Assembly (NCBI RefSeq): GCF_018882385.1
Contig: NZ_JACVON010000001.1
Location: 728,942-792,941, forward strand
Length of the DNA: 64,000 nucleotides
Source: Polynucleobacter sp. 30F-ANTBAC
GTDB lineage: Bacteria > Pseudomonadota > Gammaproteobacteria > Burkholderiales > Burkholderiaceae
Reading direction: 5' to 3'
Shown here one piece after another: positions 1,301 to 37,746 of the stretch. The notes beneath the pieces were generated by a model that saw nothing but the letters and a program-made list of their open reading frames with translations, made no database searches and was not told where the DNA came from. The first letter of the stretch is position 1; the number at the start of each line of letters is the position of its first letter. The position numbers and the translations under genes were made by a program.

Positions 1301-2119
1301 ATGACTCTCATACAAATTGCCGCCCTCATTGCCCTCGGTAGCTTTACAGGTTTTTGCGCTGGCTTATTAGGCATTGGTGGCGGCATGATGATGGTTCCAT
1401 TTCTAACTTTCTTGTTTTCGATTTACGGCTTTCCAGCAGAAAGTATTGTCCATATCGCCATTGCAACCTCAATGACTACCATCCTATTTACTTCACTATC
1501 CTCTGTTAGAGCCCACCACAAACGAGGTGCCGTTCGCTGGGATATTGTGATGGTTCTTGCTCCAGGAATTGTTATAGGCGGCCTACTGGGCGGCGGAAAA
1601 TTATTTGCCCTTCTAAAAACATCATGGCTATCCTTAGTTTTCGCAAGCTTTGTAGGGTTCTCTGCTTATCAAATGCTGCGCAACAAAAAGCCAAAGGCAA
1701 GTAGGACACTTCCAGGTAAAACCGGAATGCTTGGCTTTGGAACAGTAATTGGGTTTTTATCGAGCCTCGTAGGGGCTGGTGGCGGTTTTATTTCAGTTCC
1801 TTTTATGCTGTGGTGTAACGTTACGATGCATAACGCAGTAGCAACCTCTGCAGCCCTTGGCTTCCCTATTGCTGTTGCTAGCGTGATTGGCTACATCTAC
1901 AGCGGCTACGGCAACCCATTGCTCCCACCCGGATCTTTTGGATACATCTACCTACCAGCACTTGCTTGCCTAGCTATCGCAAGCGTTATCACAGCGCCAC
2001 TTGGGGCAAAAGTTGCGCACCAACTTAACGTTGCCCAACTTAAAAAAGCATTCGCTTTTTTATTGATCCTCTTATCTGCTTATATGCTAAACAAAGGGTT
2101 ATCTAGCCTAGCTCTATAA
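1301..2119 (+). CDS. TauE/SafE-family membrane exporter
   Basis: A 272-residue, highly hydrophobic protein with about eight membrane segments. It shows the internal duplication of the family: GLLGIGGGMMMVPFL at about 21-35 and a matching GAGGGFISVPFM in the second half. Members move sulfite, sulfoacetate or other small organosulfur anions out of the cell, but substrates of most are unknown. The neighbouring small cytochrome c could suggest sulfite oxidation in the periplasm; that is only inference. It sits between the cytochrome gene and the patatin gene on the same strand. Confidence 0.85.
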   Translation: MTLIQIAALIALGSFTGFCAGLLGIGGGMMMVPFLTFLFSIYGFPAESIVHIAIATSMTTILFTSLSSVRAHHKRGAVRWDIVMVLAPGIVIGGLLGGGKLFALLKTSWLSLVFASFVGFSAYQMLRNKKPKASRTLPGKTGMLGFGTVIGFLSSLVGAGGGFISVPFMLWCNVTMHNAVATSAALGFPIAVASVIGYIYSGYGNPLLPPGSFGYIYLPALACLAIASVITAPLGAKVAHQLNVAQLKKAFAFLLILLSAYMLNKGLSSLAL

Positions 2120-14523: not shown

Positions 14524-15465
14524 ATGAACTTACACCAATTTAGATTTGTTAGAGAAGCCGTGCGTCAGAACTTTAATTTGACGGAAGCCGCCAAAACACT
14601 CTTCACATCACAGCCTGGCGTTTCAAAAGCCATTTTGGAATTAGAGGATGAATTAGGTGTTGATATTTTTCGTCGGCATGGCAAAAGAATTAGAAATCTT
14701 ACCGAACCGGGTAAGCGAATACTAACTTCTATTGAAAGAATTTTGATGGAAGTTGAGACTTTAAAGCGTGTTGGTAAAGATTTTGCAGCACAAGATCAAG
14801 GTAGCTTCGTCATTGCCACAACTCATACACAGGCGCGCTATGCGCTACCAAAAGTTTTAACGGAATTCACCAAACTTTTCCCCAAGGTCCGGGTTAGCAT
14901 CCAACAGGGTAGCCCCCAACAAATAGCCGATATGCTCATCCACGATCGAGCTGATATCGCAATTGCAACAGAGGGTATCGCTGGCGTTGATGGCCTCCTG
15001 GCTTTACCAGGGTATCAATGGCAACACGTGATTGCTGTTCAACCCGATCACCCCCTGCTTAGCAAAAAGAATATTGCATTAGAGGACTTGGCTGAATACC
15101 CCATCATCACGTACGACCCAGCTTTCGCGGGACGCAGCAAAATTGATAAAGCATTTAGCAGTAAGAACCTTCAGCCTGACGTTGTTTTAGAAGCGATTGA
15201 TGCTGACGTGATCAAGACGTATGTTGAAACCGGCATGGGTATCGGCATTGTCGCGGGAGTTGCCTATGATGCCGATCGGGATCGCAATCTACGGGTCATT
15301 CCAGCGGGGCATTTATTTGGTAACAATGTCACTAAGATTGCGGTGAAACAAAATGCGTATTTGCGCTCTTTTGTTTATACCTTTATTGAATTGTTCTCTC
15401 CCACATTAACTCGCAAATTAGTCGACCAAGCGATGTCGGGTGAAAACGTCGATTACCAAATTTAA
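14524..15465 (+). CDS. cysB: LysR-family regulator, CysB/Cbl type
   Basis: A 313-residue LysR-type regulator. Its N-terminal helix-turn-helix (NLTEAAKTLFTSQPGVSKAILELEDELGVDIF) has the TSQPGVSKAI recognition segment of CysB and Cbl. The effector domain contains TTHTQARYALP, whose TTHTQ residues match the sulfate or O-acetylserine binding loop of CysB. CysB activates sulfate uptake and reduction genes when sulfur is limiting. No cysteine synthesis genes are adjacent. It ends within 4 bases of the converging rlmJ stop. Confidence 0.88.
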   Translation: MNLHQFRFVREAVRQNFNLTEAAKTLFTSQPGVSKAILELEDELGVDIFRRHGKRIRNLTEPGKRILTSIERILMEVETLKRVGKDFAAQDQGSFVIATTHTQARYALPKVLTEFTKLFPKVRVSIQQGSPQQIADMLIHDRADIAIATEGIAGVDGLLALPGYQWQHVIAVQPDHPLLSKKNIALEDLAEYPIITYDPAFAGRSKIDKAFSSKNLQPDVVLEAIDADVIKTYVETGMGIGIVAGVAYDADRDRNLRVIPAGHLFGNNVTKIAVKQNAYLRSFVYTFIELFSPTLTRKLVDQAMSGENVDYQI

Positions 15466-35501: not shown

Positions 35502-35909
35502 TTAGAGAGCTGCAATACCTGCTTTAGCAATTTCAGCATCTTCAGTTGATTTAACACCTGAAACACCTACAGCACCGATCGTGTGCCCATCCACAACAAT
35601 ATTGACGCCACCCTCAAGAGTGCCACTGAGAACAGGTGTTGCGTTCATGAAAGATTGACGCCCGCCGTTGATGATATCTTCATAAATCTTGCTCTCACGA
35701 CGACCCAATGCTGAAGCTTTAGCTTTCTCTTGAGCGATATAAGTCGAAATAGTTGGGCAACCATCACGGCGCGTAAATCCAAGCAGATGACCACCATCAT
35801 CAACAACTGCAATACTGACTGCCCAGTTATTTTTATCGGCATGAGCATTGGCTGCGGCTAATATTTTTTGCGCGTCTGCTTGATTTAAATAAGGTTTTTG
35901 ACCTGGCAT
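35502..35909 (-). CDS. GlcG/HbpS-family (DUF336) protein
   Basis: A 135-residue protein of the heme-degrading HbpS/GlcG family. DGGHLLGFTRRDG, the helix with QEKAKASALGRRES, and GAVGVSG near the C-terminus are family features. Members bind haem or cobalamin, or accompany glycolate and diol metabolism; the function here is unknown. It lies alone between rhlE and a divergent ArsR regulator. Confidence 0.8.
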   Translation of the reverse strand: MPGQKPYLNQADAQKILAAANAHADKNNWAVSIAVVDDGGHLLGFTRRDGCPTISTYIAQEKAKASALGRRESKIYEDIINGGRQSFMNATPVLSGTLEGGVNIVVDGHTIGAVGVSGVKSTEDAEIAKAGIAAL

Positions 35910-36027
35910 GTTCTGCTCCTCAATGATTTATAAGTTTTTTTGGACATCTTTCGATACCGTCATTCTACAGAAACAGGGTTTTAGATGGATTCTTTGCCAC
36001 AGTTAGCTTTTAAGCTAATTAAAAACA

Positions 36028-36048
36028 ATATATTTAAATTAAATATAT
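36028..36048. promoter_or_regulatory. AT-rich palindrome, probable operator of the ArsR regulator
   Basis: ATATATTTA and TAAATATAT form a perfect 9-bp inverted repeat around AAT, about 35 bases before the ArsR-family gene. BigR/SqrR regulators are known to bind AT-rich palindromes near their promoters. Confidence 0.55.
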
Positions 36049-36083
36049 AATATTATTTATGTGTTAATTAAAGGCATTTATTG

Positions 36084-36422
36084 ATGGACGAGCAAGCAAT
36101 CCCTAGCAACCTGGAATTCAGTGCAATTGATTTGTCTCTCATGAGACAGAATGCAGACAACGCATGTCGCATGATGAAAACATTAGCGAATAGAGATCGT
36201 TTGATGCTTTTGTGCCAACTCAGTCAAGGCGAAAAATGCGTTGGCGAGTTAGAGGAGTTGACGAAAATTCAACAGCCCACATTGTCGCAACAGTTAGCGA
36301 TCTTGCGCAAAGAAGAAGTTGTTTCAACAAGACGCAGTGGTAAACAAATTTATTACAAGCTTTCAAGCCCCATTGCCATTTCGGTAATGGCATTGTTGTA
36401 CGCCACCTACTGTGGCAAATAA
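36084..36422 (+). CDS. ArsR-family regulator, SqrR/BigR-like persulfide sensor candidate
   Basis: A 112-residue winged-helix protein. The DNA-reading helix lies in QQPTLSQQLAILRKEEVV (about 63-80) and the wing in RRSGKQIYYKL. Cysteines occur at 28, 44, 52 and 110. Cys44 and Cys110 are 66 residues apart, the same distance as the redox pair of SqrR (41/107) and BigR (42/108) as I recall them, which form a sulfide bridge. No typical arsenic CxC motif is seen. A DUF2892 membrane protein follows. The ATG at 36084 is used rather than the TTG before it. Confidence 0.82.
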   Translation: MDEQAIPSNLEFSAIDLSLMRQNADNACRMMKTLANRDRLMLLCQLSQGEKCVGELEELTKIQQPTLSQQLAILRKEEVVSTRRSGKQIYYKLSSPIAISVMALLYATYCGK

Positions 36423-36445
36423 GTTCATTTTTTAAAGGAATCATT

Positions 36446-36634
36446 ATGCAAGCAAATGTTGGCGGTATTGACCGCACCCTAAGAATCGCTGTTGGCGCAC
36501 TATTAGTTATTTTGGCGATTACAAATGTGATTGGCATGTGGGGTTGGTTGGGTTTAATCCCTTTGGCAACAGGCGTTTTCCGCTTCTGCCCAGCTTACCC
36601 ATTACTAGGCATTAAAACCTGTAAAAAAGATTAA
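36446..36634 (+). CDS. YgaP-like transmembrane protein (DUF2892)
   Basis: A 62-residue protein with NVGGIDRTLRIAVGALL at the start, two membrane helices (about 12-28 and 32-46), then FCPAYPLLGIKTCKKD. This is the membrane domain attached to a rhodanese in E. coli YgaP; here it stands alone. Cys48 and Cys58 could carry or pass sulfur. AAGGA lies 7 bases upstream and the ArsR-type gene ends 23 bases earlier, so the two form an operon that may respond to sulfide. Confidence 0.85.
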   Translation: MQANVGGIDRTLRIAVGALLVILAITNVIGMWGWLGLIPLATGVFRFCPAYPLLGIKTCKKD

Positions 36635-36677
36635 TTCTTTTTCATGGCGAGTGGATTGATTTACTCGAATGAGCAAT

Positions 36678-37046
36678 CTAAATGTAGTTAATCCATAAAC
36701 CATAAAGTACCAAACCAATGGTGCCTGTCAGTAAAGCAGGCACCATTCTTTTTTCCTTTTTCGAAATCATCACCAAAACAGCCAAAACAGTCACACCAAT
36801 CCGAATAGGCATCGGCACTGTGGCTAAGAGGCCGACTGGCAAAAGAATAATCCTTAAGGTCAGTGCAGCCACCATGGCGTATGTAACAGCGGATAGCCAA
36901 TTAAATAATTCACTATCTTGGCTAATCTTGCCAGATAAGAAAACGCCTAACCCACGCCATAAGTAAGTTCCAATGCAAGCAGCAATAAGCGCCGCCCACA
37001 TACCCGCATCGTTAAACATAGTTGAGAGATCAGATGTTTCTGGCAA
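36678..37046 (-). CDS. azlD: AzlD-type branched-chain amino acid exporter subunit
   Basis: A 122-residue, four-helix membrane protein with TYLWRGLGVFLSGKI near the N-terminus, the AzlD family mark. With AzlC it exports branched-chain amino acids or their analogues. Its start overlaps the azlC end by 17 bases. Confidence 0.87.
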   Translation of the reverse strand: MPETSDLSTMFNDAGMWAALIAACIGTYLWRGLGVFLSGKISQDSELFNWLSAVTYAMVAALTLRIILLPVGLLATVPMPIRIGVTVLAVLVMISKKEKRMVPALLTGTIGLVLYGLWINYI

Positions 37047-37746
37047 GTTTCTTTCCTCTCAAGTAGCGATCAAAACTATAAGCAATCGTGCCCCCAACCA
37101 AACCTGCAATTAACAAAGAGTAGTCGGGATACCAAAGATAAGAAACCGGACCAATCACGGCGCCCAACAGAATTGCGATGCGATTGGCTCTAGGCCTAAC
37201 CTCAGTAAAAGTTAAAAGAAAAAATAGCGGATTGATAAAAACCATTCCTAAACTTAAATAAGTAGGTACCTGCCCTGCAATTAAATAACCCAAGGCTGTA
37301 GCAGGAGTCGATACACCCCAACAAACTAAAGCAAATCCTGTGAAATACGCCAATCTCTTTTCGGGATCAATTTTAGGAAAGTCCCTCATAGCAACGGCCC
37401 ATGAAGTCATCGCCATGAAATGCACCAATACGTAATAAAAAGAACTGCGTTGTTTTTCTGGGAACTGAGGAAACAACGTCAAACACATAGTGAAAAAACG
37501 CGTGGCGGTTAAGGTCACCGCAAAAGCAATCGCAACGCCAGAAGAGCCCAGCACGATCATCTCAATTAACACCACTTGCCCTGGCAGCGCAAACATAAAA
37601 AAACTGGTGGCACTGGTTAACCAGATATCCAAGTTATTGGCTTGCCCCATCGCGCCAAAACCCACCATACCGGCAAACAACACGGCGGCAGGTGCGCCAA
37701 AAGCATCTTTAGCGCCTTTAAGGAGAACTTGTTTATCCAAATGCAT
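37030..37746 (-). CDS. azlC: AzlC-type branched-chain amino acid exporter
   Basis: A 238-residue protein with about seven membrane segments. GAKDAFGAPAAVLFAGMVGFGAM matches the AzlC N-terminus, although many members have a longer first helix. It is the large subunit of the AzlCD exporter and is followed by azlD with an overlap. The operon is divergent from nothing nearby: queG lies upstream on the same strand. Confidence 0.87.
   Translation of the reverse strand: MHLDKQVLLKGAKDAFGAPAAVLFAGMVGFGAMGQANNLDIWLTSATSFFMFALPGQVVLIEMIVLGSSGVAIAFAVTLTATRFFTMCLTLFPQFPEKQRSSFYYVLVHFMAMTSWAVAMRDFPKIDPEKRLAYFTGFALVCWGVSTPATALGYLIAGQVPTYLSLGMVFINPLFFLLTFTEVRPRANRIAILLGAVIGPVSYLWYPDYSLLIAGLVGGTIAYSFDRYLRGKKLARNI

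Follow-up and report, generated by a model that had tools for sequence, protein, structure and literature searches.

A putative YgaVP/BigR-like repressor with a scattered and reduced sulfane-sulfur regulon in Polynucleobacter sp. 30F-ANTBAC

The window analysed here, a stretch of 64,000 nucleotides from Polynucleobacter sp. 30F-ANTBAC, contains an operon of two genes, in which an ArsR-family regulator of the SqrR/BigR/YgaV kind is followed by a stand-alone YgaP-type membrane domain. From comparison of sequences and genomes, we put the probability at about 0.62 that this regulator is a YgaVP/BigR-like repressor with a scattered and reduced sulfane-sulfur regulon, which would be a known kind of system in a reduced form. 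The predicted top DNA target of the sensor is a distant sulfur-transporter pair, yedE-yeeE, and not the adjoining genes. A first-pass annotation had proposed a persulfide-sensing operon here; the sensor type and its operon with the YgaP membrane domain held up, while the perfect palindrome as main operator and the idea of a unit without outputs did not. From the preferred reading follows a testable regulon for persulfide sensing in freshwater Polynucleobacter, complete with exact operator sequences, and it would also offer an example from nature of a sensor that has come apart from its targets, with the operator remaining at the target. Moreover, a YgaP membrane domain set apart from its rhodanese makes the role of this domain testable with one small gene. 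The features are collected in Table 1.

Table 1. Coordinates of the features discussed (positions in the window unless given with C3).
Feature	Position	Strand	Remarks
TauE-family gene	1301-2119		
LysR-family gene	14524-15465		
HbpS-like gene	35502..35909	-	left neighbour kept in clade; outside operon
Perfect AT palindrome, ATATATTTAA-A-TTAAATATAT	36028..36048	.	10+1+10; exact match
Weak candidate operator	36042..36061	.	top match to genus matrix in 64 kb, 12.4 bits
AATATATAAT, probable -10 element	36042..36051	+	invariant in 11/11 aligned clade promoters; holds TATAAT (36046-36051)
ArsR-family regulator, SqrR/BigR/YgaV-like	36084..36422	+	112 aa; ATG 36084, stop 36422
Stand-alone YgaP-type membrane domain (PF11127, DUF2892)	36446..36634	+	62 aa; Cys48 and Cys59
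azlD and azlC	36678..37746	-	right neighbours kept in clade; outside operon
Flavocytochrome c sulfide dehydrogenase flavoprotein	C3:27090-28725		behind cytochrome c gene
yedE-yeeE sulfur-transporter pair	C3:575155-576248		PF04143
Exact operator match before yedE	C3:576297-576316		

The regulator carries four cysteines (Cys28, Cys44, Cys52 and Cys110), and the spacing between Cys44 and Cys110 is 66 residues, the same as in the sensing pairs of SqrR and BigR, just as the first-pass annotation had stated. BigR (E 7e-21) and SqrR (E 3e-20) are its closest solved relatives by sequence, and the alignments run gapless through both cysteines and place the pair on SqrR Cys41/Cys107 and BigR Cys42/Cys108 (residue numbers from excerpts of PMC9995734 and PMC5823870, respectively). 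Both cysteines are present in all 72 distinct aligned regulator relatives; Cys28 is found in 68 and Cys52 in 56 of these 72. The ArsR winged helix is recognised by PF01022 at 52.1 bits. With the NCBIfam BigR equivalog (NF040642) the regulator reaches 100.9 bits, below the cut-off of 155, and it is not a BigR in the strict sense; with the general NCBIfam subfamily “metalloregulator ArsR/SmtB” it reaches 79.8 bits, above the cut-off of 55. It is therefore named SqrR/BigR-like here, and its shortfall at the BigR cut-off weighs against the preferred reading. In the 1.96 Mb genome, it is the single regulator of this kind (search at E 0.001).

A structure model of the regulator was built from 41 sequences (pLDDT 88.5), and SqrR and BigR rank first in the Foldseek search with this model. 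A second structural comparison gave HlyU (Z 16.8), SqrR (Z 16.3, rmsd 1.4, 92-94 residues), BigR (Z 16.2, rmsd 2.8, 98 residues) and the Zn sensor CzrA (Z 15.6). Since these scores are close or tied, the fold does not separate thiol sensors from metal sensors. A metal-sensing ArsR/SmtB repressor would agree with the family name and the general subfamily match, with the tie within 1 between CzrA and SqrR, and with three relatives that adjoin an AcrB-family efflux gene (L085, L090 and L104; one copy checked). Metal-sensing sites of ArsR/SmtB proteins are marked by CxC in alpha-3, or by His/Asp/Glu ligands in the last helix. However, neither motif appears in the sequence, the model helices and the alignment counts: the regulator contains no histidine, its last helix (96-110) has no His, Asp or Glu, and Cys52, the sole cysteine of the alpha-3 stretch, is replaced by Arg, Ser or Asn in 16 of the 72 aligned relatives. 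We consider metal sensing very improbable.

In order to see the gene company of the regulator, we examined the neighbourhoods of 80 of 159 named relatives, and among these 80 the nearest ones belong to Polynucleobacter. Fourteen of the 80 resemble the window locus, with regulator and DUF2892 gene and no profile match to PDO, SQR, YeeE/YedE, TauE or rhodanese (12 from Polynucleobacter, plus L139 and L140; some of the examined stretches are short). Among the other 66 loci, 64 have at least one sulfide-gene match and 61 have a PDO match (four of them weak: L193, L197, L201 and L203), and in 52 of the 66 the PDO gene is divergent and adjoins the regulator. Linkage to sulfide or sulfane-sulfur genes is found in the relatives, but not at the window locus itself. 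The Cys pair, the closest solved relatives and this genomic company support the assignment as a putative SqrR/BigR/YgaV-type thiol sensor, and the persulfide reading is likely and well supported by comparison. The Cys pair might instead answer mainly disulfide stress or thiol reagents, as a redox, electrophile or organometal sensor, because the fold is common to HlyU and other thiol-switch regulators and tributyltin derepresses ygaVP (PMC9774250). This alternative is unlikely, given that the genes accompanying the relatives are PDO, SQR, TauE and YeeE/YedE and that SqrR is selective for persulfides over peroxide (PMC9995734).

Within the genus, the regulator is present in 118 of 151 genomes (E 1e-15), and DUF2892 follows it in 30 of the 41 neighbourhoods examined. 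It occurs in a regulator operon with YedE, YeeE and rhodanese, with a PDO gene facing TauE or SQR, at the HbpS-AzlDC locus of the window, and in a few other contexts. A gene tree with 57 rows places the eight window-locus sequences together in a single group (support 93/99), although the tree has few columns and its bootstrap is not settled. Several side observations concern these loci. The YedE-YeeE-rhodanese operon of other Polynucleobacter encodes a protein of 77 aa with NPCGP repeats and no Pfam match (L079:3208-3441). The three relatives next to the AcrB-family gene have no DUF2892, two of them (L085 and L090) have a long palindrome upstream, and they may sense something else. In some genomes the regulator or adjoining sulfide genes are broken (L086, L091 and L098), a sign of ongoing pathway loss in the genus.

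The second gene of the operon starts after a gap of 23 bp. The first-pass annotation took it for the membrane half of YgaP without its rhodanese and with two cysteines, and this description is correct: only PF11127 (YgaP-like_TM) is matched, at 85.5 bits against a cut-off of 25.3, and it is the only PF11127 match in the genome. Cys48 is present in all 50 aligned membrane-domain sequences, and Cys59 in 39 of them. Pairwise BLAST between the window membrane domain and that of YgaP gave no match, and a PDB sequence search with the domain, as single sequence or as profile, gave 0 matches. With BLAST unable to bridge the distance between these domains, the link to YgaP is drawn from PF11127 and from an alignment at 29% identity, which places Cys48 on YgaP Cys159 (numbering of PMC3551814). 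The structure model of this protein is poor (pLDDT 67.4). In the order, a PF11127-type membrane domain was found in 103 of 200 genomes; among 30 such loci examined, the regulator lies on the stretch in only 5 (two being from Polynucleobacter), and either this regulator or a sulfide gene is present in 8.

Both genes look to be under purifying selection. Between two P. meluiroseus genomes, the only clearly unsaturated pair (synonymous sites are saturated or near-saturated in nearly all other genome pairs), the regulator has a dN of 0.043 and a dS of 0.50, and the membrane protein 0.036 and 0.43, which gives dN/dS of about 0.09 and 0.08, respectively. A decaying relic was also considered and was rejected on these ratios, an argument carried by the two P. 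meluiroseus genomes.

As the first-pass annotation noted, the classic outputs are missing nearby, and no SQR, PDO or rhodanese gene stands among the neighbours. To extend this to whole genomes, Polynucleobacter SQR and PDO queries were searched at E < 1e-60 in 36 genomes, comprising 14 of the window's clade (4 of them less than 90% complete: G156, G228, G258 and G276) and 22 hand-picked others. SQR was matched in 1 of 14 clade genomes (G258, 35% identity) versus 12 of 22 others (Fisher p 0.005), and PDO in 2 of 14 (G177 and G185) versus 18 of 22 (Fisher p 0.0001); among the 22 others, G248 has a broken SQR, and its PDO is broken as well, like that of G094. The window genome has no SQR or PDO orthologue at this threshold, only weak matches, and a classic detoxification regulon of SQR and PDO is absent from it. 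Its weak SQR-type match is the flavocytochrome c sulfide dehydrogenase (FCSD_central 146 bits, FCSD-flav_bind 81 bits; 1fcd E 5e-103), and a genome without sulfide oxidation, another possibility considered, was rejected on this match. Its two weak PDO-type matches are probably glyoxalase-II-like metallo-hydrolases; the better one is closest to a hydroxyacylglutathione hydrolase. Five rhodanese-domain matches were found in the genome. The window also holds the TauE-family gene pointed out in the first pass and a LysR-family gene, a candidate for the CysB-like regulator named there; no operator-like site was found at the TauE-family gene, where the stretch ahead of the ORF at 1301 scores 1.4 bits at best. 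A small CxxCH ORF without Pfam match directly precedes this gene (both within 971-2119).

The perfect AT palindrome ahead of the regulator gene, also noted in the first pass, is exact. Dinucleotide shuffles of the whole gap (35910-36083) produce a perfect arm of equal or greater length 4 times in 1000, and shuffles of its 85% AT part do so 30 times in 1000; with one mismatch allowed, the counts are 37 and 150 of 1000, respectively. By these counts, the palindrome by itself is only mildly beyond chance. The genome contains one exact copy and one further place within 3 mismatches. The palindrome is perfect also in the close relative Ww153 and has one mismatch in the two P. meluiroseus genomes, and it decays in the clade, being not kept in the remaining aligned relatives. 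A role of the palindrome as main operator is not supported, since it is imperfect or lost in most clade relatives and differs from the genus operator described below; that it is itself the genus operator was likewise rejected, the latter being AATATAT-N6-ATATATT.

In order to define the genus operator, a palindromic matrix of 20 bases was fitted to 21 upstream stretches (23 before removal of near-copies) from regulator-containing sulfide operons of other Polynucleobacter, none of them from the window clade. The fitted operator is AATATATAaATtTATATATT, with the pattern AATATAT-N6-ATATATT, and 19 of the 21 training stretches score at least 14 bits (the exceptions are L073 and L076). In the window genome, AATATAT-W6-ATATATT has a single exact match, which sits 48 bp before yedE, on the same contig as the regulator and about 189 kb from it. 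This site scores 19.9 bits, which is reached by 0 of 5000 shuffles of the upstream stretch (highest 19.1), and none of 90,845 pooled own-genome background positions reaches 12.5 bits, where the pool consists of the window and two other stretches and leaves aside those fetched for their sites. Each of the 7 further clade genomes that carry this yedE-yeeE pair (L253, L254 and L256-L260) has a site of 16.6-20.7 bits ahead of it, at a distance of 6 to 48 bp from where the longest ORF of yedE starts. A comparable pair was not found in five clade genomes (G156, G185, G186, G255 and G276), and G177 has another YedE type with a site of 16.3 bits (L255).

Sister sites stand before other sulfur genes. 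G177 has a site of 19.9 bits and G185 a weak one of 11.9 bits between TauE and PDO, and in G258 a site of 21.5 bits precedes an SQR-like gene. None of these three sites is linked to the regulator, which lies at the HbpS-AzlDC locus in G177 and G185 and was located by its position in G258. With the exact genus operator before yedE-yeeE and these unlinked sister sites, the description as a unit without outputs is not supported, and the regulator unit is probably not output-less. Several observations on the operator count against the preferred reading. Outside the clade, two genomes with the same transporter pair (L117 and L118) have no site. With up to 3 mismatches allowed, the pattern shows no enrichment in the genome (20 matches per strand versus 27 in the reversed control). 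In addition, sites of 15.5 and 15.3 bits in the window genome stand before genes that by eye are dnaN-like and aldehyde-dehydrogenase-like, and these outscore the site in the regulator's own promoter. A rhodanese-domain gene of the window genome (L211:356-978; signal-like N-terminus by eye) has a site of 10.9 bits just upstream and is 69% identical to a gene near linked operons; as these relatives have no site ahead (-3.6 and -2.5 bits), it stays a lead as a target. Outside Polynucleobacter, another inverted repeat, TTGA(C)-GTCAA, was seen in 46 of 52 gaps between divergent PDO and regulator genes (L138-L205), with a spacer of 13 bases in 45 of the 46; the operator has apparently shifted from one genus to another.

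At the regulator's own promoter, the best match to the genus matrix is weak at 12.4 bits (13.0 bits with another background), a score that 34 of 5000 shuffles reach, and this too counts against the preferred reading. It is offset by 14 bases from the palindrome and overlaps TATAAT. In ten clade relatives, the best score at the own promoter ranges from -0.6 to 11.3 bits with shifting positions, and the own-promoter site tops its locus in 8 of 11 clade loci, window included. The invariance of AATATATAAT may reflect the promoter rather than an operator; a promoter scan of 35900-36800 returned 0 sigma-70-type sites, and the core pattern TATTTAANTTAAATA with one mismatch has 4 matches per strand versus 3 in the control. 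By analogy with ygaVP the regulator likely autoregulates, which is weakly supported and the weakest step of the preferred explanation. We also weighed a self-contained minimal unit, in which the regulator would act through the palindrome at 36028-36048 on nothing beyond its own gene and the membrane domain, and the yedE sites would be read by another protein or by none. The two-gene layout is kept in the clade, the palindrome adjoins the promoter and has a single exact copy, and G255 (99% complete) keeps the gene pair with no strong match to three sulfide queries. Such a unit is nevertheless improbable: most clade relatives have not kept the palindrome, the operator taken from regulator-linked sulfide operons stands again ahead of yedE in all 8 clade genomes that have the pair (own included), and the genome has only one regulator of the kind.

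For the YgaVP/BigR-like repressor, we infer from the literature on YedE1E2, SoxT, BigR and SqrR a course of periplasmic sulfide oxidation, YedE-YeeE import, Cys bridging and derepression. In this course, the reduced regulator, presumably a dimer, would bind AT-rich palindromes of the form AATATAT-N6-ATATATT that overlap promoters, and so repress them. When cytoplasmic persulfides such as glutathione persulfide rise, a sulfur bridge between Cys44 and Cys110 would lower the affinity for DNA, and the regulator's own operon, including the small membrane protein, and in trans the yedE-yeeE pair would be derepressed. YedE-YeeE likely carries zero-valent sulfur or thiosulfate into the cell, and the periplasmic flavocytochrome c sulfide dehydrogenase encoded elsewhere could provide it. 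The sequences analysed show the anatomy and homology, the kept cysteines, the operon layout, the genus operator with its exact copy before yedE, the lack of SQR and PDO orthologues and the purifying selection; the ligand, the dimer, the binding to DNA, the sign of regulation, the substrate of the transporter and the role of the membrane protein are inferred. More sulfur import without PDO is not an obvious defence and counts against the preferred reading; use of the import as a sulfur source may be one answer.

More tentatively, and rather doubtful as a joint claim, the system could be a scattered circuit, in which a fixed sensor with its YgaP domain controls in trans whichever sulfur gene the lineage has kept (yedE-yeeE, PDO-TauE or SQR), and in which the operator moves together with its target. 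Where a lineage has neither SQR nor PDO, the circuit would serve to acquire the zero-valent sulfur that the periplasmic sulfide dehydrogenase makes, and not to detoxify, and the membrane protein of 62 aa would accept or relay sulfur via the invariant Cys48.

Several known systems can be compared with this one. In openly licensed PubMed Central papers, we found no prior paper on the pair of regulator and membrane-domain gene, and neither DUF2892 together with ArsR nor a “BigR box”. The ygaV-ygaP operon of E. coli has the same gene order, regulator and then YgaP membrane domain, and its ArsR regulator, 28% identical over 96 residues, shares the Cys pair; published work describes YgaV as a repressor of ygaVP that responds to sulfide (PMC9774250). 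YgaP, however, carries an N-terminal rhodanese, and the window protein does not, so that the regulator and the YgaP-type membrane domain are shared and the fused rhodanese is not. BigR of Xylella, Agrobacterium and Acinetobacter is the closest solved sequence and has its Cys pair 66 residues apart, and Acinetobacter BigR controls yeeE-yedE-pdo2 (PMC7315123). In contrast, the window regulator falls below the NCBIfam BigR cut-off, its predicted target transporter is unlinked, and no Blh/PDO orthologue was found in the window genome. SqrR of Rhodobacter capsulatus, which aligns gapless through the sensing cysteines and superposes on the model (Z 16.3, rmsd 1.4), controls sqr and a rhodanese and forms a Cys41-Cys107 tetrasulfide with glutathione persulfide (PMC9995734), whereas the window genome has no SQR orthologue.

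For the membrane domain, a comparison is offered by the DUF2892 protein Dsui_0042 of Azospira suillum: its transcript rises about tenfold during sulfide oxidation, and its deletion only slightly delays the onset and leaves the rate unchanged (PMC5358917). For the transporter, Cupriavidus YedE1E2 brings zero-valent sulfur into the cell and increases glutathione persulfide (PMC10812762), and in SoxR-SoxT1B of Hyphomicrobium denitrificans the YeeE-like SoxT is the signal unit for a sulfane-sulfur ArsR repressor (PMC11582611). An importer of the YeeE/YedE type is thus common to these systems and the present one, and in SoxR-SoxT1B it is functionally tied to such a repressor, whereas in Polynucleobacter sp. 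30F-ANTBAC the importer is unlinked to the regulator and the tie between them is the predicted operator.
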